Of a stretch of 64,000 nucleotides of DNA, positions 24,114-63,350 are shown piece by piece. The notes beneath the pieces are model-generated. The model searched no databases. It worked only from the letters and a program-made list of their open reading frames with translations, and was not told where the DNA came from. Every line of letters begins with the position of its first letter. Position 1 is the stretch's first letter. The stretch lies in assembly GCA_013214945.1 (NCBI GenBank), contig JABSRT010000001.1, positions 62,001-126,000 on the forward strand, given 5' to 3'. Both the position numbers and the translations under genes were made by a program. This DNA comes from Gammaproteobacteria bacterium. GTDB taxonomy: Bacteria > Pseudomonadota > Gammaproteobacteria > Enterobacterales > Psychrobiaceae.

Positions 24114-25592
24114 TTAGCCTGTAAAGAGCCCTGACAAGAGTGCGGTGACCGGCCCAGGATAAAAACCAAATCCAAGCACTAGGGTGATAATTACACCATA
24201 TAATAGCACCGAACCAAGGTCGACATTGCTATTGGCCTTGTGCTTTAAGCTTGTCTTGACGCTTGTTTTATTGCCTGTCTTGTTGCTTGGTTTGCTCAGG
24301 CTGATAATTAAATTAAAGTAATAAAACAAACTAATGATACTGCCTAAGCAAAGAGTGGTTAGCAAATACCATTGCTGATTATTAATGCTGGTTAATACCA
24401 AATACAATTTTGCGACAAAACCAAAGGTTAATGGGATGCCTGCCAGCGATAAGATAAGTACAATTAAGGTGATCGCTCTACAGGGCTGTTGCCACAGCAG
24501 CCCCTGTAATTTCAGCACGGTATCTTGCTCTGGACTTTGCATTAAAACAGTGAAAATAGCCGTTAGCGCCAACAGATAAGCGCTGAGATAGATAATCATC
24601 ACTTGTTGTGATGTTAGTAGCATATTTACACTGTTGTTTGAGTTTAAATTGATTAAAATCAATAAGTAACCGAAATGTGCAATTGATGAATAAGCGAGCA
24701 GCCTAAAAATGTTTTGCTGTCTTAAGGCCAATATATTGCCAATTAACATTGAAACCATCGCAACTAGCAACATGATATCGCTGATCGCCGCAATTTCTAA
24801 CCATTGGTTAGCCACAAATAGTCGCAGCAATACCACAAACATTGCCAATTTAGGCAAGGTACTGATTAAGGCTGCAACTGGTGGCGGGGCTCCTTGCACC
24901 AAATCAGCAAACCACAAATGACAAGGCACCACAGATAATTTAAACAAAGCGCCGACTAAAATAAAAATTATCGCCAGATTCACTAACCACGGATTCAGCA
25001 AGCCCGTTTTGTTGGCTGTTAAGCTGGTCAAACTCAAGCTGGCCAAATTTAAACTGCCGAGGTCGATATACAGTAGCGCAAAGCCAAGCAGAATGGTCGC
25101 CGAGGCTATCGCTGATAAAATAAGATACTTTATTGCCGCTTCCGTCACTAAATGCTGCCGCTCGCTAACCGGTGGTTGAAAGGCGATTAAACCAATTAAG
25201 GACAGACTCAGTAGTTCAAGACCCAGCAATAATAATGCAAAATGATTTGCCGCAATCATTACTAAGCAACCAATAGTTAACCACAGCAGCAGCAGATAAA
25301 ATACGGCGGGCGAGCGGCTGTGTAAATGGAGCCAAGGTTTGAGAGCAAGCCAGATCATTAATACGATCAGCAGGGCCAATTGTGATAGCGCAATGGTTAG
25401 GGCATCAAAGGTTAATAAGCCGACTTCTAGACTTGGAGTTAGCCATGCTTGCGTCTGCACAGCCAATGCGGCGATTAAGGCGCTGCCCGTCAACCAATGA
25501 CTCCAATAGTGAGCGAAGCGAGTGGTCGCGAGAAAAACCAGCAGCACTGAAGCAATGATAAGAATCGTTATTGCAGCGAGTTCAATCGTCAT
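24114..25592 (-). CDS. nuoN: NADH-quinone oxidoreductase subunit N
   Basis: NuoN is one of three antiporter-like proton-pumping subunits in the membrane arm of complex I. The 492-residue product has about 14 helices; the transmembrane Glu in LELLSLSLIGLIAF and the Lys in LFKLSVVPCHLWF are the conserved charged residues of the family. A polar Lys/Asn/Thr-repeat loop (about residues 430-452, NKTGNKTSVKTSLK) sits before the last helix and is not typical. It is the last gene of the nuo operon, 18 bp after nuoM. Confidence 0.96.
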   Translation of the reverse strand: MTIELAAITILIIASVLLVFLATTRFAHYWSHWLTGSALIAALAVQTQAWLTPSLEVGLLTFDALTIALSQLALLIVLMIWLALKPWLHLHSRSPAVFYLLLLWLTIGCLVMIAANHFALLLLGLELLSLSLIGLIAFQPPVSERQHLVTEAAIKYLILSAIASATILLGFALLYIDLGSLNLASLSLTSLTANKTGLLNPWLVNLAIIFILVGALFKLSVVPCHLWFADLVQGAPPPVAALISTLPKLAMFVVLLRLFVANQWLEIAAISDIMLLVAMVSMLIGNILALRQQNIFRLLAYSSIAHFGYLLILINLNSNNSVNMLLTSQQVMIIYLSAYLLALTAIFTVLMQSPEQDTVLKLQGLLWQQPCRAITLIVLILSLAGIPLTFGFVAKLYLVLTSINNQQWYLLTTLCLGSIISLFYYFNLIISLSKPSNKTGNKTSVKTSLKHKANSNVDLGSVLLYGVIITLVLGFGFYPGPVTALLSGLFTG

Positions 25593-25610
25593 AGCTTACA
25601 CCTGCCATCA

Positions 25611-27170
25611 TCATAACCCCACTCGCGCTAACATTGTGTGAGCTAAAGCCGTTTGGACAAAAGCCTCTTGAATCAAAGTCACTTGCTCTAACGTTACCGT
25701 ACTCACTTGTTGAATAAGGTCTAAAACCGGTTGTGGATGCAGCCCCAGCAATAACAGCAAACCGATAAGGCACAGCAAGGTCAATTGCTCAAGCCGATTA
25801 ACATCCGTAACCTTACGCGTAGGGCTGTTTGCTTGATTACTGGCTTGAGTATTTAAATAAACAGGGCCCCAAAACGTTCGATGAATAATCACCAGGGCGT
25901 AACATGCCGAAAAAACAAGCCCTGTGGCCGCCAAAATACTCGCGAATTTAAAGTATTCAAAACTGCCTAATAACACTAAAAATTCACCAATAAAGTTGCC
26001 TAAACCGGGCATGCCTAAGGTTGCGATAACCAAGACCATCGCCATGCCGCTTAGCTTTGGAATCTGCTGAGATAATCCACCCAATTGGGCCAAATCTCGG
26101 GTGCGATAACGGCGCTGGATCATGCCTGCTATCGCAAACAAGCCAGCGGAGGTTAAGCCATGTGCGATCATTTGCACAATTGCACCTTGCAGTGCAATTT
26201 GGCTTAAGCTAAAACAGCCAAGCAACACAAATCCCATATGACTAATGCTTGAATAAGCCACCAAACGTTTAAGATCTGTTTGGGCAAACGCCAACAATGC
26301 GCCGTAGATAATACCAACCACCGCAATGGTATTAATTAATGGCGCAAATTGCAGTGAAAAATCGGGAAATAACACTAATACAAAACGAATTAATCCATAA
26401 CCCGATGTTTTTAAAAGTATCGCGGCCAAAATAATACTGGCAGCCGTTGGTGCTTCGGTATGCGCGTCGGGCAACCAGCTGTGAATGGGCACCGCTGGCA
26501 GCTTGACTAAAAAAGCCAGCATAAAACCCAGTCCTAACCAAAATTGATTGGTTGGGCTCAGGTGAAGTTGCTGTAATTGGACGTAATTAAAACTCAATTG
26601 GCCCGTCGCTTGCTGATGTAATAAGGCCAGAGCGCAAATGCTAATCAACATTAACAGGCCACCAAACTGGGTGAAAATTAGGAATTTTAGTGCCGCATAA
26701 TGGCGATTTTGATGACCCCAAATATTAATAAGAAAGAACATTGGCACCAACATGACTTCCCAAAAAACAAAAAATATCAATAAATCTAGCGCAATAAAGA
26801 CCCCGATAATGCCAGCGATGGTTAATAGCAAGTTGCAATAGAACAAACCTAGTCGCACGGTTATCTCTTGCCATGCTGAGGCCAGCGCCACCAACGAGAT
26901 TAAAATAGTCAGAGTTACCATCACTAAACTTAAGCCGTCCAGTGCTAAAAATAGCCTGATATTAAGTGCGGGTAACCAAGCGCTGTCAAATTGGGCGAGC
27001 CACTGTGAGTCGGTATTGCCGCGCTGTACCAGTAAACTCACCACAGGTACTGCCGTGGCTAGTAAGGTTAGCAAGGTGACATAACGCGGGCAGTTGCGAT
27101 GGTATCGTTGCGATAATAACGCGATTATAGCGCCTGCCACTGGCAATAGTATCAGCATCAGTAACATCAT
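25611..27170 (-). CDS. nuoM: NADH-quinone oxidoreductase subunit M
   Basis: Second antiporter-like subunit of complex I, 519 residues and about 14 helices. The functional Glu is in FWEVMLVPMFFLINIWG and the functional Lys residues in VKLPAVPIHSWLPDAHTEAP and ILLKTSGYGL. Length is normal. It overlaps nuoL by 4 bp (ATGA) and precedes nuoN, so expression is coupled. Confidence 0.97.
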   Translation of the reverse strand: MMLLMLILLPVAGAIIALLSQRYHRNCPRYVTLLTLLATAVPVVSLLVQRGNTDSQWLAQFDSAWLPALNIRLFLALDGLSLVMVTLTILISLVALASAWQEITVRLGLFYCNLLLTIAGIIGVFIALDLLIFFVFWEVMLVPMFFLINIWGHQNRHYAALKFLIFTQFGGLLMLISICALALLHQQATGQLSFNYVQLQQLHLSPTNQFWLGLGFMLAFLVKLPAVPIHSWLPDAHTEAPTAASIILAAILLKTSGYGLIRFVLVLFPDFSLQFAPLINTIAVVGIIYGALLAFAQTDLKRLVAYSSISHMGFVLLGCFSLSQIALQGAIVQMIAHGLTSAGLFAIAGMIQRRYRTRDLAQLGGLSQQIPKLSGMAMVLVIATLGMPGLGNFIGEFLVLLGSFEYFKFASILAATGLVFSACYALVIIHRTFWGPVYLNTQASNQANSPTRKVTDVNRLEQLTLLCLIGLLLLLGLHPQPVLDLIQQVSTVTLEQVTLIQEAFVQTALAHTMLARVGL

Positions 27171-29050
27171 AAGCTGGGCCCATGAGTGATTAACATCCAG
27201 CCAATCGCCGCCACAGCAAACAGAATTAACACGCCATTATAAAGCCGTAACGAGCCAGTTTGACTGCGGCTTAATTGGCGATGGCAGGTCAGCATGGCAG
27301 CTTCAATGGTGCGATAGATTTGATCGAACAAGTCTTTTTTATTGAGTTTGGTCAGGGCGAAAAAAGGATCAATGATTAACCGCTGATATATCAGATCAAA
27401 ATACCAGCCATTGGTGAGAAAACTGTGTAGCCGTTGTTGCCAGTGTAACCGTAATTGTGTGCCAAACACACCGCGTATAAAGCAGAAATAGGCCAGGATA
27501 ATCGCAGTAAATGGGGTGGAAATCGCAATTGCTTCGGCCAATGAATGCGCCCATACCGGAATGGCCGGCGGCAATGATGAGGTTGTAGTTAGCAGCAACA
27601 GTTCAAGGCTAGCTGGCATTAAGCCACCGACAATAGTTAGCCCGCTCAGGATCAATAAAACTGCGGCCATTAAGCGGGGTAACTGGCTGCTCGGGGCTTG
27701 CTTTAAGCGGCCAAAAAACACCACTAAGATTAACCTAGCACTGTAAAATGCGGTCATAAAAGCGCCGACAATGGCGCCAAGCCATAACCACGGATGACCA
27801 CTGAGCAATACCTCATTTAAGATCCGTTCCTTACTGAAAAACCCTGACAATAAAGGCAATGACGATAACGCCGCAGCGCCAACCACAAAGCTGAGAAAAA
27901 CCATCGGCATTAAACGGCGCAGCCCGCCCATTTTAAAAATATTATGCTGGTGATTTAAGCCATGAATTAAAGCGCCGGCACTGAGAAATAGCAGCGCCTT
28001 GAAAAAGGCGTGGGTCATTAAATGAAAACTCGCTGCAGCGGTGGCACCAACTCCTAGCGCCAAAAACATGTAACCAAGCTGACTGATGGTTGAATAGGCT
28101 AAAATGCGTTTGAGATCGTTTTGCACCATCGCGGCACTGGCGCCAAGCAACAGGGTGAGGGTGCCGACAACCGCAATGAGTTGCAAGGTTGCACTGGCCT
28201 GTTGAAACAGCGCGAAAAGACGCACCACTAAATAAATACCGGCGGTCACCATAGTTGCAGCGTGGATCAAAGCGCTGACTGGAGTAGGGCCAGCCATGGC
28301 ATCGGGCAGCCAATTTTGCAGCGGTAGTTGTGCCGACTTACCAGCGGCGCCAATAAAGAGTAACAAGGTGCAAATATTAGCGACGTTACTATTATTGGCG
28401 CTATCGAGTGGCCACACCGCGGCCGCGTTGTGGTTAATTTGTGCGATATTAAGGCTGCCAAACTGCCAAAATATCATTAAAAGACCAATTAATAGCGCGG
28501 TATCACCGATTCTGGTGGTGATAAAAGCCTTGTTGGCCGCTCGGTTATTGGCGCGCTCTTTGGACCAAAAGCCAATTAATAAATAACTGCACAAACCAAC
28601 CCCTTCCCAGCCGAGATAAAGCAATAACAGGTTATCGGCTAATACCAGCAGCAGCATCGCGCCAACAAATAAATTTAAATAGGCGAAATAGCGTTGCACA
28701 CCCGGATCTTTGGCCATAAAAGCCACCGAATAAAGATGAATTAAGCTGCCGACGCCAGTAATGATGCTAATCATCATCAGGGATAAGGCATCGAGATATA
28801 GACCGAAATTCAAACTCAAACTAGGTTGACCAAGATTAAGCCACGTCGCAGGTATGGCAATAACAACGGCAAAATCCGGGGTGGTAACGAGTTGAATTGT
28901 TGCGACAGCGAGCGCCGAACCCGTGACACTTAACGTTGCTAGCACCGCTGCTACTCGTGGGTTTAAGGGGACTAACAGCAGTAGTATGGCGCTTAATATT
29001 GGGAGCGCTACTATTAAGGGCAGTAAAAATTGGATCATTGACAGGACCAT
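27167..29050 (-). CDS. nuoL: NADH-quinone oxidoreductase subunit L
   Basis: The most distal antiporter-like subunit of complex I, 627 residues, including the long C-terminal lateral helix expected at about 520-600. Landmarks are LGWEGVGLCSYLLIGFW (conserved Glu), the GKSAQLPLQNWLPDAMAGPT motif (Lys) and MVTAGIYLVVR. GAGGGG seven bases before the ATG at 29050 decides the start over a GTG at 29053 and an ATG at 29038. It follows nuoK directly and overlaps nuoM. Confidence 0.97.
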   Translation of the reverse strand: MVLSMIQFLLPLIVALPILSAILLLLVPLNPRVAAVLATLSVTGSALAVATIQLVTTPDFAVVIAIPATWLNLGQPSLSLNFGLYLDALSLMMISIITGVGSLIHLYSVAFMAKDPGVQRYFAYLNLFVGAMLLLVLADNLLLLYLGWEGVGLCSYLLIGFWSKERANNRAANKAFITTRIGDTALLIGLLMIFWQFGSLNIAQINHNAAAVWPLDSANNSNVANICTLLLFIGAAGKSAQLPLQNWLPDAMAGPTPVSALIHAATMVTAGIYLVVRLFALFQQASATLQLIAVVGTLTLLLGASAAMVQNDLKRILAYSTISQLGYMFLALGVGATAAASFHLMTHAFFKALLFLSAGALIHGLNHQHNIFKMGGLRRLMPMVFLSFVVGAAALSSLPLLSGFFSKERILNEVLLSGHPWLWLGAIVGAFMTAFYSARLILVVFFGRLKQAPSSQLPRLMAAVLLILSGLTIVGGLMPASLELLLLTTTSSLPPAIPVWAHSLAEAIAISTPFTAIILAYFCFIRGVFGTQLRLHWQQRLHSFLTNGWYFDLIYQRLIIDPFFALTKLNKKDLFDQIYRTIEAAMLTCHRQLSRSQTGSLRLYNGVLILFAVAAIGWMLITHGPSL

Positions 29051-54547: not shown

Positions 54548-56260
54548 TTAGCTGCCTAGTAAGCTCAAGGCTAAAAAGCATGCCAGCACAATAATAATCC
54601 ATAAGGTCATTTGGCCGACGGTCTGATTCGCGAGGATCAAAATAGGGTACTGCTGGTATTGTTCAACCTTGAGTAACAGCTGACGATACAGGTTGCCACC
54701 ATGCTGGCGAATTAGCTGGTCAACCGTGCTTACCTGGCTGATTAATCCCACCCAAATGTTGGGTAATAAACGCCGATATAACCAATCACTGTCTAGATTG
54801 GTTGAATGTAATTCTGCCGGATAAATGCCTTTGAGCTTTAACCACACAAACGCCAGTGCCGAGAAACACAACAGCTGAGTTTGAGCCAATATATGGCTAG
54901 TATCATAGGGATTATAATCCGAGCTATAAGGTAATATTTGGTACAATAAGTTAGGGTAGACACCAATGATTATGCACAATGCCGCGGCAATGCTCATCCC
55001 AATTAGCATATTGGCTGGTGGATCGCTGGCGCGCAGGCCGCTATCGTGACCAAAAAAGGCAAAATAAGGGATCTTAATACCAGCATGATGGAAAACCCCC
55101 GCTGAGGCAAAAAGCAGCATCAGCCAAACAACGTCATAACCTTGAGCTAACGCCGCGCTCATGACCATCGATTTACTAATAAATCCGTTAAACAGCGGAA
55201 AGGCCGAGATTGACGCCGCACCAATTAAGCATAATAGGGTAGTTTTGGGCATTGTTTTGTACAGTGCGCCGAGATCAGAACCGTTAATCTTGCCTGTCAT
55301 TTGCAATACTGCGCCCATCGACATAAACAGTAAGCCTTTAAATAGCACATCGTTAAAGGCGTGTGAAATTGCCCCATTGATTGCTAGCTCAGTGCCTATG
55401 CCAATACCTACTACCATAAAACCGAGTTGGTTGATCAGGCTGTACGCTAACACTCGGCGTAAATCATTTTCAATCACCGCATAAAATATCGGGAAGCAGG
55501 TCATGACCGCGCCGATATAGACTAAACTTTCGGTGCCAGCAAAGCTTCTGGCCATCGCATAAACAGCAACTTTAGTGGTCAGGGCGCTTAAAAAGATGGT
55601 GCCCGTTGGCGTTGCTTCTGGGTAAGCATCAGTTAGCCAGGTATGCAGCAGTGGGAAGCCGCATTTAATGCCAAAGGCAATAAAGATTAAGGTGGCACCG
55701 ACACCTTGCAACTCTATTTCGGTGAAGGCGACACTACCATGTTGATGCCAATAAAACGCCGTGCCGATTAGTAGTAATAAACCGGACAGGCATTGGTAAA
55801 TCAGGTAACGAAAGCCACTGGTTAATGACCTTTCGCTACGCCGTGCCCAGATCAGAAATACTGACGACAGTGCCATTAGCTCCCAAAAGATAAACAGCGA
55901 TAACAAGTCACCGACAAAGACAGCGCCTAAGGCCGCGGCGGTATATATTAAGCTTGAGAGCTGCTGAACTTTATCACGGACGTGCAAGGCATAAATGATC
56001 GCAAAAAGTGCAGCAATATGAAAGAGATAACCAAATAACAAGCTGAGTTTATCGACGCGGTAGGGCACTAAATCTAGTGCTAATAGATTAACTTGCCAGC
56101 CAATTTGTTCAAAAGGTTGTAAGCTCACCTGCCATATATTCAAGGCTCCCCATAACGGCGCAGCTAGCATCAACACGGTGGTTAGACGGCCACGAGAGAA
56201 CAGCACTAATACTGCAATGATTAAAAACGGTACAAAAGGGGGCAGGTTAAAGACTGACAT
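54548..56260 (-). CDS. Mrp-like antiporter subunit D, third and longest copy
   Basis: A 570-residue antiporter-like membrane protein of the NuoL/M/N-MrpD superfamily with about 14-15 helices. The functional Glu is in FWELMALSSVFLIW and Lys residues are in GIKCGFPLLHTWLTDAYPE and TTKVAVYAMARS. The C-terminus carries an extra hydrophilic loop and a final helix beyond the MrpD core. It closes the operon and overlaps the small membrane protein gene by 14 bp. In related clusters it is usually annotated as a subunit D-type protein, but which MrpA function it might take over is inference. Confidence 0.88.
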   Translation of the reverse strand: MSVFNLPPFVPFLIIAVLVLFSRGRLTTVLMLAAPLWGALNIWQVSLQPFEQIGWQVNLLALDLVPYRVDKLSLLFGYLFHIAALFAIIYALHVRDKVQQLSSLIYTAAALGAVFVGDLLSLFIFWELMALSSVFLIWARRSERSLTSGFRYLIYQCLSGLLLLIGTAFYWHQHGSVAFTEIELQGVGATLIFIAFGIKCGFPLLHTWLTDAYPEATPTGTIFLSALTTKVAVYAMARSFAGTESLVYIGAVMTCFPIFYAVIENDLRRVLAYSLINQLGFMVVGIGIGTELAINGAISHAFNDVLFKGLLFMSMGAVLQMTGKINGSDLGALYKTMPKTTLLCLIGAASISAFPLFNGFISKSMVMSAALAQGYDVVWLMLLFASAGVFHHAGIKIPYFAFFGHDSGLRASDPPANMLIGMSIAAALCIIIGVYPNLLYQILPYSSDYNPYDTSHILAQTQLLCFSALAFVWLKLKGIYPAELHSTNLDSDWLYRRLLPNIWVGLISQVSTVDQLIRQHGGNLYRQLLLKVEQYQQYPILILANQTVGQMTLWIIIVLACFLALSLLGS

Positions 56261-56648
56261 TATTGCTCCTATCCGTCGTTGCTAATTTATCGCTTTGAGC
56301 GCTGGCATCAGAGCTGACACTAATATCATCAGTGCTAGCTGCTGTGTTAAGTGCATTCTCCTGTCCATTCTTCTGCGAATTACTGTCTAGATTGTTGTCT
56401 AGATCGTTATCGTAGTAATCTTCACTGCGCATTAAGATATGACGCATGCCTTTGGCTACGACGACCAAAACAACACAACCAATAAAGCCGTAAATCGCGT
56501 AAAAGCCCGGCACGCTTTCAAGCGGATGACTGGTGTGGCGGTCTAATACAAAATCTAAAGCGAATAAGGTGGCACACATCACCGCTAGGCTGCGGATCAG
56601 CCGCGACACATTTTTAGGATCGTCAAACAAATGCTTTTTCTGTGTCAT
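56247..56648 (-). CDS. Small two-helix protein of the antiporter cluster
   Basis: A 133-residue protein with two hydrophobic segments (about 18-35 and 48-66), a conserved-looking N-terminus (KKHLFDDPKNVSRLIRSL) and MRSEDYYD after the second helix, then a Ser/Asn/Asp-rich tail from about residue 80. I recognise similar proteins only as unnamed members of such antiporter clusters. It overlaps the last antiporter gene and follows a D-type gene by 53 bp, so it is likely a small accessory subunit. The tail is probably variable. Confidence 0.7.
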   Translation of the reverse strand: MTQKKHLFDDPKNVSRLIRSLAVMCATLFALDFVLDRHTSHPLESVPGFYAIYGFIGCVVLVVVAKGMRHILMRSEDYYDNDLDNNLDSNSQKNGQENALNTAASTDDISVSSDASAQSDKLATTDRSNNVSL

Positions 56649-56701
56649 CTTGTGCCCTCCGTGAGTACATTAAACATCGATTTAGCTAATGAGTTTGCTG
56701 G

Positions 56702-58210
56702 CTATTTATCCGCGACGGGAATACTTGCCGCTAATTGATACAGTGATTGTGGAAATAAAAATAAAATGACGCAGGCGGATGCGCTGATAACAATGGCAAT
56801 TAATATTGGCAACGGCGCTTCAAGCGACGGCTTGTTTAGTGGCTGCTTACTTAACTGAGCAGCGCCAACGGGGTCGAAAAAAGCACGAACCGAGATTGGC
56901 AATAAATAAAATATGTTCAATATTGAGCTCAACCCTAATACCGACATCAACAACCATTGCTGCGCTTCAATTGTACCGTGCAGGAGATACCATTTACTCC
57001 ACATGCCAGCGGTTGGCGGCAAACCGATAATCGATAAACTTGCCACAAAAAATGCAGCCATGGTAATGGGCATTTGTCGGCCGATGCCACGCAACTCGCT
57101 GATATTGGTTTTGTTGGTCATCACCAAGATTGCACCGGCACAAAAAAACAAGGTAATTTTGCCAAATGCATGAGTAACCATATGCATGGCGGCGCCAATG
57201 ATGCCTGAGCTGTTGGCCAGTAATGCGCCAATGGTGATATAACCGAGTTGGCTGACAGTCGAATAAGCGAGACGCTTTTTGAGATTGTCTTGGCGCATGG
57301 CAACCAAGGCGGAAAATAACACCGAAAAACCACCTACATACAATAAGACTTGGTGCGAACTAAGTTGTTGTAGGGTATCGGTGCCAAAGATATACACACA
57401 GACTTTTAAAATGGTGAAAACACCGCCTTTGACTACCGCAACGGCGTGTAATAATGCGCTGGCGGGTGTTGGGGCGACCATGGCTGCTGGCAACCACTGA
57501 TGAAAAGGGAAAATAGCGGCTTTAGCGATGCCAAAAATAAATAAGGCCAGTAATATTGAGATAGTGGTGGCAAGGGCAGGGTTCGCCGCGAGCTGGGTGG
57601 TAAATATTCCGCCGGTGGTAAAGTCTAATGTGCCACTAATGAGCCAAGTATTTATCATCGCGAGCAAGAAAAACACAATTGATGTTGCGAGTAAAATGGT
57701 TAAATAAATTCGGCCACCACGTTTGGCTTTTTCGGTGCCAGCATGAACCACCAACGGAAAAGTCGATAAGGTCAACAACTCGTAAAATATATACAAGGTA
57801 AACAGATTAGCGGCGAAGGCAATGCCCATAACTGCGGCCATCGCGATGGCAAAAAATTGATAAAAACGGCTTTGGTTCGCTTCATGATGCTGGCGCATAT
57901 AACCGATTGAATAAATACTGGTGACAAACCATAAAAAGCTGGCCATTAAGCCAAAGATAAGTCCCAGCGGCTCAATGGTAAAACTTAAACTTAAGCCGGG
58001 CAGTAGGGTAATCCATACTAGGACTGCCGCAGGATCAGTCGTGACGTTATGATCCAAGTTATAAATTAACAGTAACAGACTAAAACTAGCGATTAGCGAA
58101 ACCCCTTCGCGGATATTCGGGTGCTTTGCAACTAGTCTAATCATCACTGCAGCGATTAATGGCAAGATCAAAATCAGCTGCAAGCTTAAATTATCACTTG
58201 CGCTGATCAT
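56702..58210 (-). CDS. mnhD: Mrp-like antiporter subunit D, second copy
   Basis: A 502-residue antiporter-like subunit with about 14 helices. The Glu is in YELLTLSTFPLVVHAGTEKA and the Lys residues in FGIAKAAIFPFHQWLPAAMVA and AVVKGGVFTILK. These fit proton or sodium translocation in the Mrp complex. It overlaps the first D-type gene by 4 bp (ATGA). Confidence 0.9.
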   Translation of the reverse strand: MISASDNLSLQLILILPLIAAVMIRLVAKHPNIREGVSLIASFSLLLLIYNLDHNVTTDPAAVLVWITLLPGLSLSFTIEPLGLIFGLMASFLWFVTSIYSIGYMRQHHEANQSRFYQFFAIAMAAVMGIAFAANLFTLYIFYELLTLSTFPLVVHAGTEKAKRGGRIYLTILLATSIVFFLLAMINTWLISGTLDFTTGGIFTTQLAANPALATTISILLALFIFGIAKAAIFPFHQWLPAAMVAPTPASALLHAVAVVKGGVFTILKVCVYIFGTDTLQQLSSHQVLLYVGGFSVLFSALVAMRQDNLKKRLAYSTVSQLGYITIGALLANSSGIIGAAMHMVTHAFGKITLFFCAGAILVMTNKTNISELRGIGRQMPITMAAFFVASLSIIGLPPTAGMWSKWYLLHGTIEAQQWLLMSVLGLSSILNIFYLLPISVRAFFDPVGAAQLSKQPLNKPSLEAPLPILIAIVISASACVILFLFPQSLYQLAASIPVADK

Positions 58211-59685
58211 GGCGACATCTCCATTAAATACTCGGCCGCTAAGGTCGAGATATTAAGCGGTAAGCTCGGATCAATCCCAAAATAGAGGTTGGCCAGCACC
58301 AGAATCCACGTTGGCACTAACAGGCTGATAGGAGCTTCTTTAAGTTGGCTAATATCTGTTGCTGGTGGCGTAAAGTAGGCCATAACAATAATGCGCCAAA
58401 CATAAACGCCCGCTAATAGTGAGCCGAACAAGATGAGGACCGCGACTGGCCACCATCCATTTTCAAGCGTGGCACTGAGTAAATACCATTTACTAATAAA
58501 ACCGACCGTCAGTGGCAGGCCAATTAAACTTAAACCCCCGATCACGATAGCGGCCATCGTCCACGGCATGCGCTGTCCTAGTCCGGCAAACTGCGACAAT
58601 TGCACACTGCCAACCCGATACATCACACTGGCTAACGCGAGAAACAGCGCGCCTTTAATTAAGGCATGGTTAAACAGGTGTAATAAAGTTGCTGTCAAAC
58701 CACTGGTACTATTAATGCTCAGTGCTAACATCATATAAGCGACTTGAGCAATACTGGAGTAAGCAAAAATATGCTTAACATTTTGTTGATAAATCGCAGC
58801 AATCGAGCCGGCGAAAATACCGGTTAAGCCAAGCGTTAATAAGATATCTTGCAGCGGTAATACGGTGAAGGAAAAGCTGACGCCAAAAATGGTAAAAACA
58901 AAGCGCAATAAAATGTAGATCGCAACCTTAGTGGCGGTTGAGGCCAAAAAAGCACTGACTATCGAGGGAGCAAACGCATAGGCATTGGGCAACCACCAAT
59001 GCAGCGGAAACAGCGCTAGTTTTAAACAAACACCGACGGTGAAAAATGAAAATGCAGTGATTAAGGTTGTTGAATCGGATACGTCGGCCAGTCGCAGCGC
59101 CAGATCATGCATGTTTAAGGTACCCGTTAACATGTACATTAAACCGATGCCGATCAAAATAAAGGTCGCGCCAATAGTACCCACTAATAAATAGGTTAAT
59201 GACGCGGTTAATGCGCGTCGGTTTTTGCCCAGGGCTATTAAGGTGTAGGTTGAAAGCGCCGCTATTTCTAAAAAGACAAACACATTAAAAGCGTCGCCAG
59301 TGGCAATGATGCCGAGCATTCCGGTTAAGCACACCAAATAAAGGACATAAAACAATCGATGTTTATGGGTGGCCAATTCGGCCTTAAGACTGGTATTGGC
59401 GGCTAACAAAATGATACTGCTCATGCCTGACACGATTAATAATAGGTAGGCGTTGAGATAATCAATTCGATACTCAATGCCGATAGGCGCGCTCCAACCA
59501 CCAAGTGCATAATTAATTGGGCCGCTGTCCATGACTTGGTTGACTAACATCATCGATATCACAAAGGACGTAAAACTAGCCAACAGCGCAAACAGCCATG
59601 CCAGCGTTGGTCGACTTATCAGCAGACATAACGGCGCGCCAATCAGCGGCACAATAACTTGTAAAATCGGCAGCTGAGCGATCAT
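58207..59685 (-). CDS. mnhD: Mrp-like antiporter subunit D, first copy
   Basis: A 492-residue antiporter-like subunit with about 14 helices, with Glu in FLEIAALSTYTLIALG and Lys in the segments CLKLALFPLHWWLPNAY and ATKVAIYILLRF. It overlaps the C subunit gene by 4 bp and the second D gene by 4 bp, showing tight coupling. Confidence 0.92.
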   Translation of the reverse strand: MIAQLPILQVIVPLIGAPLCLLISRPTLAWLFALLASFTSFVISMMLVNQVMDSGPINYALGGWSAPIGIEYRIDYLNAYLLLIVSGMSSIILLAANTSLKAELATHKHRLFYVLYLVCLTGMLGIIATGDAFNVFVFLEIAALSTYTLIALGKNRRALTASLTYLLVGTIGATFILIGIGLMYMLTGTLNMHDLALRLADVSDSTTLITAFSFFTVGVCLKLALFPLHWWLPNAYAFAPSIVSAFLASTATKVAIYILLRFVFTIFGVSFSFTVLPLQDILLTLGLTGIFAGSIAAIYQQNVKHIFAYSSIAQVAYMMLALSINSTSGLTATLLHLFNHALIKGALFLALASVMYRVGSVQLSQFAGLGQRMPWTMAAIVIGGLSLIGLPLTVGFISKWYLLSATLENGWWPVAVLILFGSLLAGVYVWRIIVMAYFTPPATDISQLKEAPISLLVPTWILVLANLYFGIDPSLPLNISTLAAEYLMEMSP

Positions 59686-60050
59686 TGTTGACGATCCTTA
59701 GCCTGGATTTCATCTTCTTCGATGGTGTCATAACGTTGCTTAATTCGGATAATTAAAGCAAGAGCCAGCGCAGTGGTCGAAATACTCACTACGATGGCGG
59801 TTAGCATTAACACATGAGGTAATGGGTTCGAGTACAAGGTTGCTGCGGCGCTGCTGCTTTTATCCAAAATAGGTGCGGTTGCGCCGTTTATTTTGGCCAT
59901 GCTAATGAAGAAAATGAAAATGGCACTTTGAAAAATAGTCAGGCCAATGATTTTCTTGACCAAGTTAGCTTGTGCGATCACGATATATAAACCGTTCATC
60001 ATCACTAGCATCACCACCCAGTAATTAAATGAATCACTTATATTCATCAT
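59682..60050 (-). CDS. mnhC: Mrp-like antiporter subunit C
   Basis: A 122-residue NuoK-like subunit with three helices and the NGLYIVIAQANLVKKIIG start and PLPHVLMLTAIVVSISTTAL stretch typical of MnhC/MrpC. It overlaps the fused B gene by 17 bp and the first D gene by 4 bp. Confidence 0.93.
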   Translation of the reverse strand: MMNISDSFNYWVVMLVMMNGLYIVIAQANLVKKIIGLTIFQSAIFIFFISMAKINGATAPILDKSSSAAATLYSNPLPHVLMLTAIVVSISTTALALALIIRIKQRYDTIEEDEIQAKDRQQ

Positions 60051-61041
60051 AGCCCCCTAATTTAGGGATTTGACTGGTAAATAACATAAAAATTAACAAG
60101 ATAATCGAGGCAACGGTTAGGCCTATGCCCAGCTCGACCGCGAAAATTCCCAGATGTTGGCCAGCGATTGGGTTTTGTGCTAACACCTTATAATCAAGAA
60201 AATTTTGTCCGGCTAATAGTGAAAGCAGCCCAATGCTGCCATAGAATAAAACACCGAGCGCGGCCAAAAATTCAAGCCAGGCAATGCTGATTAGTTTGAC
60301 GGCAGCGGGCAGGCCAAAGATCATGGTATAGAGAATAATTGCGGTCGCAAATATAACCCCGGCCTGAAAGCCGCCACCTGGACCAAAATCACCGTGAAAC
60401 TGGACATATAATGCAAACAATAAAATAAAGGGGATAATCACTTTTGCAACAATCCGTAAGATATGATGCTCACTCATGGTGCCAGCAATTGATTCGTTAG
60501 CGGGTGATTTATCTTTGATCATGCGGCTGCCTAACAAAGCAAGCACGCCAATGCCGGCGCTAAAAATCACCAGTAATTCACCCAAGGTATCGTAACCTCG
60601 GTAGCTTGCCAAGACACTGGTGACGATGTTGACGATACCTGTATCGCCATACGATTGATTAATATAATACGAAGCGACATGCTGATGAATCGGCGCACTT
60701 GCTGCGCCAAATGGCGGCATTTGCACGGTGCCGTAAATTAATAATCCAGTGGTAAAGGCCGCGACAGCTAATGCAAGTTTCGGTTGTTGGCGCTGTTTTT
60801 TTTCAAAACGGCCAGTGACCGATAAGGTCGACAGCAATAATAATGTTGAAATGGCCACGCCCACCGCCGCTTCGGTAAAAGCGACATCAACCGCGTCCAT
60901 CAGGACGAAAAAACTGGCGCACAACAAACTATAAATACTCAATAACATCACGCTGGCGAGCAAATCATAGCTTAGGGTGATCCCGCAAACAGTGAGCAGT
61001 AACAAACACAATAAACTGATATCAATTAATGATTCGATAAT
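60034..61041 (-). CDS. mnhB: Fused DUF4040-MbhE-MnhB subunit, ATT start proposed
   Basis: A membrane subunit of about 335 residues. The first domain (about 5-75) is DUF4040/MbhD-like, with VDVAFTEAAVGVAIST; the second (about 85-175) is MbhE-like, with YRGYDTLGELLVIFSAG; the third (about 190-330) is MnhB, with FGPGGGFQAGVIFATAI. In MrpA these first two domains are its C-terminal end. The first in-frame conventional codon is TTG at 61011, but homologues begin with the IESLIDISLL segment and AAGGAG lies just before an ATT at 61041, so I propose AUU initiation. The gene overlaps mnhG. Confidence 0.85.
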   Translation of the reverse strand: MIESLIDISLLCLLLLTVCGITLSYDLLASVMLLSIYSLLCASFFVLMDAVDVAFTEAAVGVAISTLLLLSTLSVTGRFEKKQRQQPKLALAVAAFTTGLLIYGTVQMPPFGAASAPIHQHVASYYINQSYGDTGIVNIVTSVLASYRGYDTLGELLVIFSAGIGVLALLGSRMIKDKSPANESIAGTMSEHHILRIVAKVIIPFILLFALYVQFHGDFGPGGGFQAGVIFATAIILYTMIFGLPAAVKLISIAWLEFLAALGVLFYGSIGLLSLLAGQNFLDYKVLAQNPIAGQHLGIFAVELGIGLTVASIILLIFMLFTSQIPKLGGYDEYK

Positions 61042-61445
61042 TGATCTCCTTTGGTTTTATCTGTTGCGATGTCATCGGCAGAAGTTTGATGTTGAGAGTT
61101 TTTTTGGTTTGAGTCTACAAGGTTTGAGTCTTGATGGTCAGCGTTTGGAATTTTGGAGCTTAACTTATCCTTAGTTGCGGCGTGGGCTAATGCATAACTA
61201 ACTGTTGGGCCGCTAATGAGAATAAAAACGAGCAGTACAAATAACTTGCTCAAGCTTGTATCCCAGCCACTTTGCAACATTAAACCCACTAATATCAGGC
61301 CAACGCCTAAGGTATCTGCAACGCCAGCCGCGTGCAGCCTGGTATAAAAATCAGGTAAACGAAAATTGCCAATAGCAGCAATAACAATGCAAATGACACC
61401 TAACAATATCGCCACAAAACTCAGGCTATTGATAATAAATGTCAT
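61026..61445 (-). CDS. mnhG: Mrp-like antiporter subunit G
   Basis: MnhG/MrpG, 139 residues from ATG 61445, with three helices and the signatures FRLPDFYTRLHAAGVADTLG and SGPTVSYALAHAA. After about residue 95 comes a hydrophilic Ser/Asp/Asn-rich tail not seen in most MrpG. It overlaps the F gene by one base (TGATG) and its end lies inside the start region of the fused B gene. Confidence 0.92.
   Translation of the reverse strand: MTFIINSLSFVAILLGVICIVIAAIGNFRLPDFYTRLHAAGVADTLGVGLILVGLMLQSGWDTSLSKLFVLLVFILISGPTVSYALAHAATKDKLSSKIPNADHQDSNLVDSNQKNSQHQTSADDIATDKTKGDQLSNH
61046..61051 (-). promoter_or_regulatory. Shine-Dalgarno AAGGAG before the ATT start of the fused B gene
   Basis: Read on the minus strand, AAGGAG at 61051-61046 is followed 4 bases later by ATT (61041-61039) and 7 bases later by ATC. 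It lies inside the mnhG coding sequence. No ATG or GTG in this frame is near it. Confidence 0.6.
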
Positions 61446-61726
61446 CAGCCTTCCTTGTCTGGTGAGCACGGTGGATTATCCACACTGTGCTGAACATAAC
61501 GTAAGATGCCAACGGTGCTAATAAAGTTTAGCAATGCGTATACCAGCGCGATATCGAGAAAATCAGGGCGGCCAAAGAAAAAACCTAATACCGCGATAAA
61601 TAAAACAGTTTGGGTCCCAAACATATTCACCGCCAAAATTCGGTCATAAAGGCTCGGGCCGATAAAGGCGCGGCATAAAGCGAGCAACATCACGACTAGA
61701 ATGGCTATTAGCGCGGCAGCTAACAT
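61445..61726 (-). CDS. mnhF: Mrp-like antiporter subunit F
   Basis: MnhF/MrpF, 93 residues and three helices, with RAFIGPSLYDRILAVNMFGT and FLDIALVYALLNFISTVG as in the family. It overlaps mnhE by 7 bp and mnhG by one base. MrpF is implicated in cholate and Na+ efflux in Gram-positives, but its role here is simply as complex subunit. Confidence 0.94.
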   Translation of the reverse strand: MLAAALIAILVVMLLALCRAFIGPSLYDRILAVNMFGTQTVLFIAVLGFFFGRPDFLDIALVYALLNFISTVGILRYVQHSVDNPPCSPDKEG

Positions 61727-62196
61727 GACTTTTCTAATCTTTTGACTCGACTCGCCAGTTCGCCACTGCGCAAATCGTCGGCGAGTTTACGAGTTAACGC
61801 ATGAACGACAATCGTGTCATTTTTGATTTCAAGGGTTAGGGTACCGGGCACCAAGGTGATTGAGTTGGCAAAAATCACCTTACTGATTTCATCATTAAAA
61901 TCTAATTTCAGCGAGAAAACCTCAGGGCTGATTAATTTTGGCCCTTGCACTATCAGTTTGAGCACTTCGATGCAGCCCAACACAATTTCTTTAATTAACC
62001 AGCCATAAAAAGGAAAAATATTTGGAAGCAGTTGTAACGGCCAGGACTCATGATCAATGATGTTCATACGGTGACAAATTAGCAAGACCAAGGTAATAGA
62101 GCCCAAGCCTAATGCGAGTAATAAACCCGTGTAGTAGCCAGAATTCACCAACCAAAATCCTATCAACAAAAACAATAAGCTCAATATGTAACGCAT
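61720..62196 (-). CDS. mnhE: Mrp-like antiporter subunit E
   Basis: MnhE/MrpE, 158 residues with two or three N-terminal helices and a soluble C-terminal domain containing VIFANSITLVPGTLTLEI and DTIVVHALT, the family signature. It is the first gene of the antiporter operon, with AAGGAGAAT ahead of its ATG. A universal stress protein gene lies 125 bp upstream on the same strand and may share the transcript. Confidence 0.94.
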   Translation of the reverse strand: MRYILSLLFLLIGFWLVNSGYYTGLLLALGLGSITLVLLICHRMNIIDHESWPLQLLPNIFPFYGWLIKEIVLGCIEVLKLIVQGPKLISPEVFSLKLDFNDEISKVIFANSITLVPGTLTLEIKNDTIVVHALTRKLADDLRSGELASRVKRLEKSC

Positions 62197-62321: not shown

Positions 62322-63182
62322 TTAATCTTGAGGTCGTTTGATGATTAAGCAATCGGTTCGTAAGTGGTGAAGCACTTTTTCGGCAATATTGCCCAGCAAC
62401 CAACTGCTAATACCGGCGCGGCCGACGCTGCCAATAATGACAAGGTTACTGCGTAATTGATTGGCCATGTGGGGAATGGTACGGTCTGGTGGTCCTGCTG
62501 AGATATGACTTTTAATTGATTCCATATCAAAGTCAGCCAATAATTTGTGCATTTTTTCTTTGGCCGCGGGGGCTTTTTTTTGTTCAACAGAGTAGGCGTC
62601 TACCACGTCAAACTCAAGTAATGGTTTAGCAATGGGAATACTATAGGTTGCGTGTAATTGGCTTTGAGTAACTTGGGACCAAGTTTGTCCCCAGTCTAAA
62701 ATTAAGCCATTTAGTTGATGGTGGTTTGCGCCATTGCTCGATAAATTCAAGGCTAATAATATATTTGCCTTGGTTTTCCATTTTACATTACTGGCGATTA
62801 AAATTGGGCAAGCTAAATGTCGGATAAGTTGCCAATCACAGGGGGTATGGAATAGTGACTCACTACGATGACCTGCTTTTATGACAAGATCAATACTGTG
62901 TTGCTCGCAATATTTGACCACCCAATCAGCAAGATTGTTGGTAATAATAACTTGGCTGGTAATGTCGGCAGTAGATTCGAAAACCTTAGCTAATGTCACT
63001 GAAAGTGATTGCTGCTCTTGGTCTGCTCGTTGTGCTAGCTGGCTCTGAGGTACGTTATCGTGATTAATAAATTTAATTATTTCCATGGTTGCGGCCATGG
63101 GTAAAGCGATATCACGGGCCTTTTCTAGCGCCAGCATGTCGTCGTTTTCTATGTCTGTAATAACTAATACACGTTTACTCAT
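62322..63182 (-). CDS. Tandem universal stress protein
   Basis: A 286-residue protein with two Usp domains (about 1-140 and 145-286). The second ends with GSVGRAGISSWLLGNIAEKV, the ATP-binding G-2x-G-9x-G-(S/T)-type stretch, though the last position reads N rather than S/T. The first half is more degenerate. UspE-type tandem proteins help stress survival. ATG 63182 with GGTGAGA upstream is chosen over an in-frame start 18 bases earlier. It may be the leading gene of the antiporter operon. Confidence 0.88.
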   Translation of the reverse strand: MSKRVLVITDIENDDMLALEKARDIALPMAATMEIIKFINHDNVPQSQLAQRADQEQQSLSVTLAKVFESTADITSQVIITNNLADWVVKYCEQHSIDLVIKAGHRSESLFHTPCDWQLIRHLACPILIASNVKWKTKANILLALNLSSNGANHHQLNGLILDWGQTWSQVTQSQLHATYSIPIAKPLLEFDVVDAYSVEQKKAPAAKEKMHKLLADFDMESIKSHISAGPPDRTIPHMANQLRSNLVIIGSVGRAGISSWLLGNIAEKVLHHLRTDCLIIKRPQD

Positions 63183-63350
63183 AGATCTCACCCCTTGCAA
63201 AGTAAGTATTATCTAAGAACATATCAGGGACTTTGTCAATCGCCAGTTGCTTATTTTATCGGCTAAGAAGTTGATTTCATTATTGTGAAATCAACAAAAA
63301 AATCTAGAGGCTACGGTGTAAGGACTATTTTTGATGGATTGGCCCAGCTA

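Follow-up and report, generated by a model that had tools for sequence, protein, structure and literature searches.

What kind of complex is encoded by an Mrp-like operon that carries three D-type subunits and no MrpA? The question is raised by a stretch of 64,000 nucleotides from a gammaproteobacterium of the Psychrobiaceae (GenBank assembly GCA_013214945.1, contig JABSRT010000001.1, positions 62,001 to 126,000; here, the window), in which nine genes on the minus strand, from 62196 to 54548, are arranged as E-F-G-A'B-C-D1-D2-S-D3. These positions, the strand and the order, proposed in an initial annotation made from the DNA alone, were borne out by the list of open reading frames (ORFs) and by Pfam and NCBIfam assignments. 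We read the operon, with a probability of about 0.75, as encoding a single complex, an antiporter of the Group 3 Mrp (CPA3) type that exchanges monovalent cations for protons and in which three proton channels stand in line, a reading based on sequences and structural models. Most likely, judging from the encoded proteins, it is an electrogenic Na+/H+ antiporter in which the three channels are coupled. This reading is favored by the occurrence of every Mrp component (E, F, G, A', B, C, and D) in one tight operon.

Absence of MrpA and division of its traits

The source genome (4.70 Mb, completeness 100) contains no full-length MrpA, which confirms the absence first proposed for the operon. Searches for Proton_antipo_M, MbhD, and TIGR00940 rule out that an MrpA lies hidden at another site: the six Proton_antipo_M proteins are D1, D2, D3, and the NuoL, NuoM, and NuoN of the nuo operon (window positions ~24333 to 28639), the single MbhD domain is that of A'B, and TIGR00940 scores NuoL alone (a 628-amino-acid frame). 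Group 1 and 2 Mrp systems have an MrpA that unites the NuoL-like half, the lateral helix, and the C-terminal domain in a single chain, and this trait is therefore lacking. Group 3 is defined by mrpB to mrpG without mrpA, with only mrpD-type genes, sometimes several (PMC8415708), and the operon has this composition. It also appears to stand alone, as the conserved block runs from E to D3 and no hydrogenase or other redox subunit was found among the flanking ORFs, although the flanks were not exhaustively annotated; within that scope, the initial annotation was right that no hydrogenase or electron-transfer gene lies nearby. The NiFe-hydrogenase-like redox subunits that mark operons of membrane-bound hydrogenase (MBH) and its sulfane reductase relative (MBS) are likewise missing among the neighboring ORFs.

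The three D proteins are all predicted proton channels: D1 (58207 to 59685; 492 amino acids; PF00361 [Proton_antipo_M], 2e-61) is MrpD/NuoN-like, D2 (56702 to 58210; 502 amino acids; PF00361, 4e-57; PF00662, 3e-6) is nearest to MrpA/NuoL and lacks a lateral helix, and D3 (54548 to 56260; 570 amino acids; PF00361, 4e-43) carries a lateral helix of the NuoL/MrpA type and scores 705 bits against NCBIfam NF009310 (cut-off, 564). In a maximum-likelihood tree of 82 proteins, they fall into three separate clades (each with support of 100/99 or better; 100/99 for D1) outside both canonical MrpD and MrpA plus NuoL, and so the tree suggested with the initial annotation does not make them ordinary MrpA or MrpD. 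D2 is the sister of MrpA plus NuoL (support, 92/85) and has, as His255, the histidine of transmembrane helix 7 (TM7) that is found in 9/9 MrpA proteins and in neither D1 nor D3. D3, the only one of the three with a C-terminal extension, has an AlphaFold2 model (57 sequences; predicted local distance difference test [pLDDT], 91) in which TM15 (residues 454 to 476) is followed by a 44-residue helix (492 to 535) and TM16 (546 to 569). In Foldseek searches, it matched ND5/NuoL with query TM-scores (TMq) of up to 0.82 and MrpD/NuoM with scores of ~0.70. As judged from the tree, the alignments, and the model, the MrpA/NuoL traits are divided, with ancestry and the TM7 histidine in D2 and the lateral helix in D3. 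The earlier proposal that the NuoL-like part of MrpA is represented by one of the D-type proteins thus does not hold; a single stand-in for MrpA is ruled out.

All three proteins keep the TM5 glutamate and the TM7, TM8, and TM12 lysines of proton-pumping homologues, the channel residues expected of antiporter-like subunits in CPA3 systems (Glu140, Lys222, Lys253, and Lys399 in D1; Glu144, Lys230, Lys261, and Lys406, in addition to His255, in D2; Glu127, Lys199, Lys230, and Lys363 in D3). All three should therefore conduct protons.

Length of the lateral helix

The lateral helix can be compared with those of complexes with known numbers of channels, among them rhizobial green complex I, where NuoL is replaced by two MrpD-like subunits (PMC9040806). 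The segment bounded by the aromatic residue that follows DxxW and the glycine that precedes TM16 measures 19 to 21 residues in nine MrpA proteins (two channels), 44 in two NuoL proteins (three channels), 54 in the window's D3 and in 58/77 relatives, and 73 in the D3 of 4/4 green complexes I (four channels). This series agrees with the published insertion of 26 amino acids for each added pump (PMC9040806). Placed in this series, the D3 helix appears long enough for three channels, at 54 residues and with the helix modeled from 492 to 535, and its length fits a three-channel array.

Distribution and gene order

A protein scan of genome contigs yielded 80 loci, from Alteromonas, Thalassomonas, Ferrimonas, Pseudoalteromonas, and many marine metagenome-assembled genomes (MAGs), some of which are labeled Gemmatimonadota, Alphaproteobacteria, or Nitrospirae. 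The order was judged in the 57 loci that hold the whole set, and the search for the same order in other genomes, as first suggested for this operon, gave a uniform answer: E-F-G-A'-B-C-D1-D2-S-D3 in 57/57. The fused B subunit seen at the outset is real in the window but is a minority state, since A' and B are joined in 12/57 loci and are separate genes in the other 45. Conservation is confined to the block from E to D3; the UspE-like gene upstream of the operon (62322 to 63200) lies next to the cluster only in near relatives. In one locus (L163; G177 contig 6, 448000 to 467000), C-D1-D2-S-D3 is preceded not by E, F, G, and A'B, which are missing, but by regulatory genes of the chemotaxis type and a response regulator of the SpoIIE type.

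Marine Gammaproteobacteria commonly have this arrangement. Among 185 sampled gammaproteobacterial genomes, D3 exceeds the NCBIfam cut-off in 37, all of which have S, and canonical MrpA is present in 31, making this form at least as common as the canonical one. The two tend to exclude each other, with both in 2 genomes and only one of them in 35 and 29 genomes, respectively (Fisher P = 0.047, uncorrected for kinship).

S and the D2-S-D3 module

S (56247 to 56648; 133 amino acids) is a small membrane protein with two predicted helices (residues 11 to 34 and 49 to 72) and a conserved ..MRxEDYYD tail. Neighboring genes of the operon overlap or abut except for the 53 bases ahead of S, which has its own GGAG. 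The conserved small membrane protein noted at the outset between the last two D genes proved to accompany D3 in all relatives, directly upstream of it in 79/79. S has no Pfam or NCBIfam match and no relative in the PDB, and its assignment to a known family was rejected, the weak Pfam matches being scattered and each confined to at most 4/70 members. Its AlphaFold2 model is moderate (pLDDT, 69), and so only the two membrane helices were taken from it.

A plasmid protein search showed that the complex I operons of Sinorhizobium and Phyllobacterium read nuoJ-nuoK-D2-S-D3-nuoM-nuoN-..., without NuoL, and that S is annotated in them as a hypothetical protein. This is the green complex I described above, which is reported to be upregulated in symbiosis (PMC7415380); no mention of S was found in the accessible text of published accounts of it. 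The operon points to S as an unnamed subunit in the rhizobial enzyme. Green complex I also occurs in two genomes (L165 and L167) from the same order or genus as the window, and one congener (G002) combines it with the Mrp-type cluster.

D2-S-D3 is therefore one module, an intact block common to the Mrp cluster and green complex I, and its intactness in complex I operons without NuoL indicates that D2 and D3 are able to function next to each other within one complex. In the tree, the D2 and D3 clades are each common to both systems (support, 100); green D3 nests within Mrp-type D3, whereas green D2 is not nested within D2. The TM7 lysine kept by the window's D3 is replaced by asparagine in green D3 (L129, L130, L165, and L167) and in 6/20 Mrp-type D3 proteins, and one channel may be altered or inactive where this has happened. 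A separate locus (L156; G174 contig 244, 1 to 14000) contains two S-D3 pairs beside a nonribosomal peptide synthetase-like gene, without D2 or other Mrp genes, and the lateral-helix regions of its D3 proteins are long, resembling those of green complex I.

Cation path

The remaining subunits are mrpE (61720 to 62196; 158 amino acids; PF01899 [MNHE], 8e-22), mrpF (61445 to 61726; 93 amino acids; PF04066 [MrpF_PhaF], 7e-20), mrpG (61026 to 61445; PF03334 [PhaG_MnhG], 5e-24), A'B (60034 to 61038), and mrpC (59682 to 60050; 122 amino acids; PF00420 [Oxidored_q2], 2e-19). The Pfam domains of A'B (DUF4040/MbhD, PF13244, 1e-13; MbhE, PF20501, 4e-11; MnhB, PF04039, 2e-25) identify it as the C-terminal part of MrpA joined to MrpB in one chain, which scores 401 bits against NCBIfam NF009161 (cut-off, 272).

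MrpF Asp38 and a glutamate in transmembrane helix 19 (TMH19) of MrpA have been proposed to lie on the Na+ path in Bacillus (PMC9568556). Of the sodium-path acids compared, MrpF Asp38 and MrpA Glu687 are changed in the operon, and MrpA Asp776/Glu780 are retained. By PDB alignment, Asn34 of the window's MrpF takes the position of Asp38; asparagine is found there in 58/58 members of the class, and the canonical neighbors have Asp or Glu (10/10). The TMH19 motif LTQLsVE reads FTEAAVG, with glycine in place of the glutamate and another glutamate one helical turn earlier. A second pair of sodium-site acids (Asp141 and Glu145 of DTLGE) is retained by nearly all members. Na+ may still be the cation, although the path predicted for it is different.

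These changes are what would be expected if the same complex exchanged K+ or another cation at an altered sodium site, and Mrp-type systems that act on K+ (Pha1) or Ca2+ (T. roseum) are known (PMC5703873). We nevertheless regard an ion other than Na+ as unlikely, given the retention of the DTLGE acids and the fact that the Na+-pumping MBH (PMC8415708) shares the MbhD-type domain assigned here by Pfam to A'. The genome has two NqrB/RnfD-family genes, one ~6.6 kb past the window end (132571 to 133599 of the contig; G000 C1) and a second copy on another contig (C4), which is consistent with a Na+ economy.

Proposed complex and alternative explanations

From the gene content, order, conservation, channel residues, modeled lateral helix, and absence of MrpA, we infer a single Na+/H+ antiporter complex with three channels, whose subunit order, stoichiometry, and direction would be as follows. 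The cation half, with its hinge, would be made up of E, F, G, A'B, and C; D1 would adjoin C, with D2 in the middle and D3 at the far end, its lateral helix running back over D2 and D1 and tying the channels together, as that of NuoL does over NuoM and NuoN. S would be a structural subunit of D2 and D3, probably at their contact. Cation exchange in E/F/G/A'B/C would be coupled to the D1-D2-D3 channels, and three channels rather than two would give stronger electrogenic exchange with more H+ per cation. Na+ could then be driven out against a steeper gradient or, in reverse, H+ export could be paid for by Na+ entry, the direction being set by the gradients. A role in pH and Na+ homeostasis is suggested by analogy with the Group 3 Mrp of Pyrococcus furiosus, which uses Na+ and affects pH homeostasis (PMC8415708).

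Several observations weigh against this proposal. The D3 segment is longer than that of NuoL (54 versus 44 residues), and so the ruler is only approximate; the mutual exclusion with canonical MrpA is weak, at the P value given above and with kinship uncorrected; and the changes of MrpF Asp38 to Asn and of the TMH19 Glu to Gly, with a Glu one turn away, mean that the cation, or the path it takes, may not be the usual one.

The D proteins might also not act together, leaving a two-channel complex to which D2-S-D3 would be an alternative end piece or a spare one. Canonical Mrp operates with two channels, and the block does move between complex types. However, D1, D2, S, and D3 are always all there, in a single order, and the lateral helix exceeds the two-pump length, making this explanation improbable. 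We give still less weight to the idea that the products of the operon serve as membrane components of a redox enzyme, either complex I or an MBH-like one, rather than as a stand-alone antiporter: the homology to MBH/MBS and the presence of D2-S-D3 in green complex I are countered by the absence of a redox subunit among the flanking ORFs, by the nuo operon of the window having its own NuoL, NuoM, and NuoN, and by E, F, G, and B having no place in complex I. An ordinary Mrp with its MrpA split by a recent accident in a single genome, which would place the NuoL-like and C-terminal parts on separate genes as here, is refuted by the recurrence of the order in Gammaproteobacteria, Gemmatimonadota MAGs, and others and by the old D1, D2, and D3 clades outside MrpA and MrpD.

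A three-channel antiporter thus remains our preferred interpretation, and the distinct complex with three antiporter modules envisaged in the initial annotation gains support from the absence of MrpA, the separate D clades, and the conserved S. More tentatively, at somewhat less than even odds, the operon would represent a distinct Mrp class with three coupled channels and a higher H+/cation ratio than the two-channel form, in which S is an unrecognized subunit that locks D2 to D3 and moves with them between Mrp and complex I; such a module could have made an Mrp end piece into the fourth pump of complex I.

Start codons and transcription signals

The listed ORF of mrpG begins with GTG at 61469, but ATG at 61445, which overlaps the mrpF stop codon (TGATGA), is more plausibly the start. 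Translation of A'B probably begins at a nonstandard ATC (61038) behind GGAG (61049 to 61046) rather than at TTG (61011). The start position is nonstandard in 15/40 relatives (ATC in 12 and ATA in 3), each with a purine-rich site just ahead and no ATG, GTG, or TTG within 4 codons, whereas the other operon genes mostly begin with standard codons in nearly all loci. A'B may have a conserved nonstandard initiation codon; infC is an example of a gene with one. A promoter scan gave 23 sites, compared with 19.5 in shuffled sequences, and terminator matches were strewn through the genes; no conclusion was drawn from either.

Comparison with known systems

Group 3 Mrp is already known as a kind, as are the NCBIfam families for the fused B protein and D3; the three-D form is barely described. 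Related clusters have been published (PMC8415708, PMC7784846, PMC9040806), and no description of this exact gene order with S was found, although earlier literature may mention the operon. A well-described cluster with the same order, named in the initial annotation as grounds for refutation, is thus only half in evidence. As far as the literature examined shows, the fixed nine-gene order, the split MrpA traits, the application of the ruler to Mrp, the role of S as a constant subunit common to green complex I, and the altered MrpF site appear to be new. No solved structure matches S, and the stand-alone Mrp entries found in the PDB are of the MrpA type.

The closest likeness is to Group 3 clusters (mrpEFGBB'CD of P. 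furiosus and those of cyanobacteria and Microbacterium), which share the lack of mrpA, the EFG-B..-C-D order, DUF4040 and MbhE as separate pieces, and a stand-alone position without redox genes (PMC8415708, PMC5703873). The P. furiosus cluster contains a single D, whereas here there are three, the third with a lateral helix, plus S. The Group 3 cluster of "Ca. Nitrospira alkalitolerans" has two extra MrpA/D (NuoM/NuoL)-like genes behind mrpD, but the available text mentions no small subunit and analyzes neither the roles of the subunits nor a lateral helix nor how widespread the cluster is (PMC7784846). Group 1 and 2 systems (Bacillus, Dietzia, Vibrio, and Pseudomonas) have homologous E, F, G, B, C, and D and two of the sodium-site acids in common with it but differ in having an MrpA with a NuoL-like N-terminal half. 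MBH and MBS of Thermococcales resemble the operon in the MbhD/MbhE/MbhF-like arrangement of A' and B and differ in their hydrogenase or sulfane reductase subunits. Rhizobial green complex I shares the D2-S-D3 block in place of NuoL (PMC9040806) but is part of a full NADH dehydrogenase, with a D3 lateral helix ~19 residues longer and the D3 TM7 lysine lost; here, EFG-A'B-C-D1 stands instead of the Nuo subunits. The series of channels runs from two in Mrp through three in complex I to four in green complex I, and a three-channel Mrp without redox chemistry, if true, would allow direct measurement of how ion stoichiometry depends on channel number.

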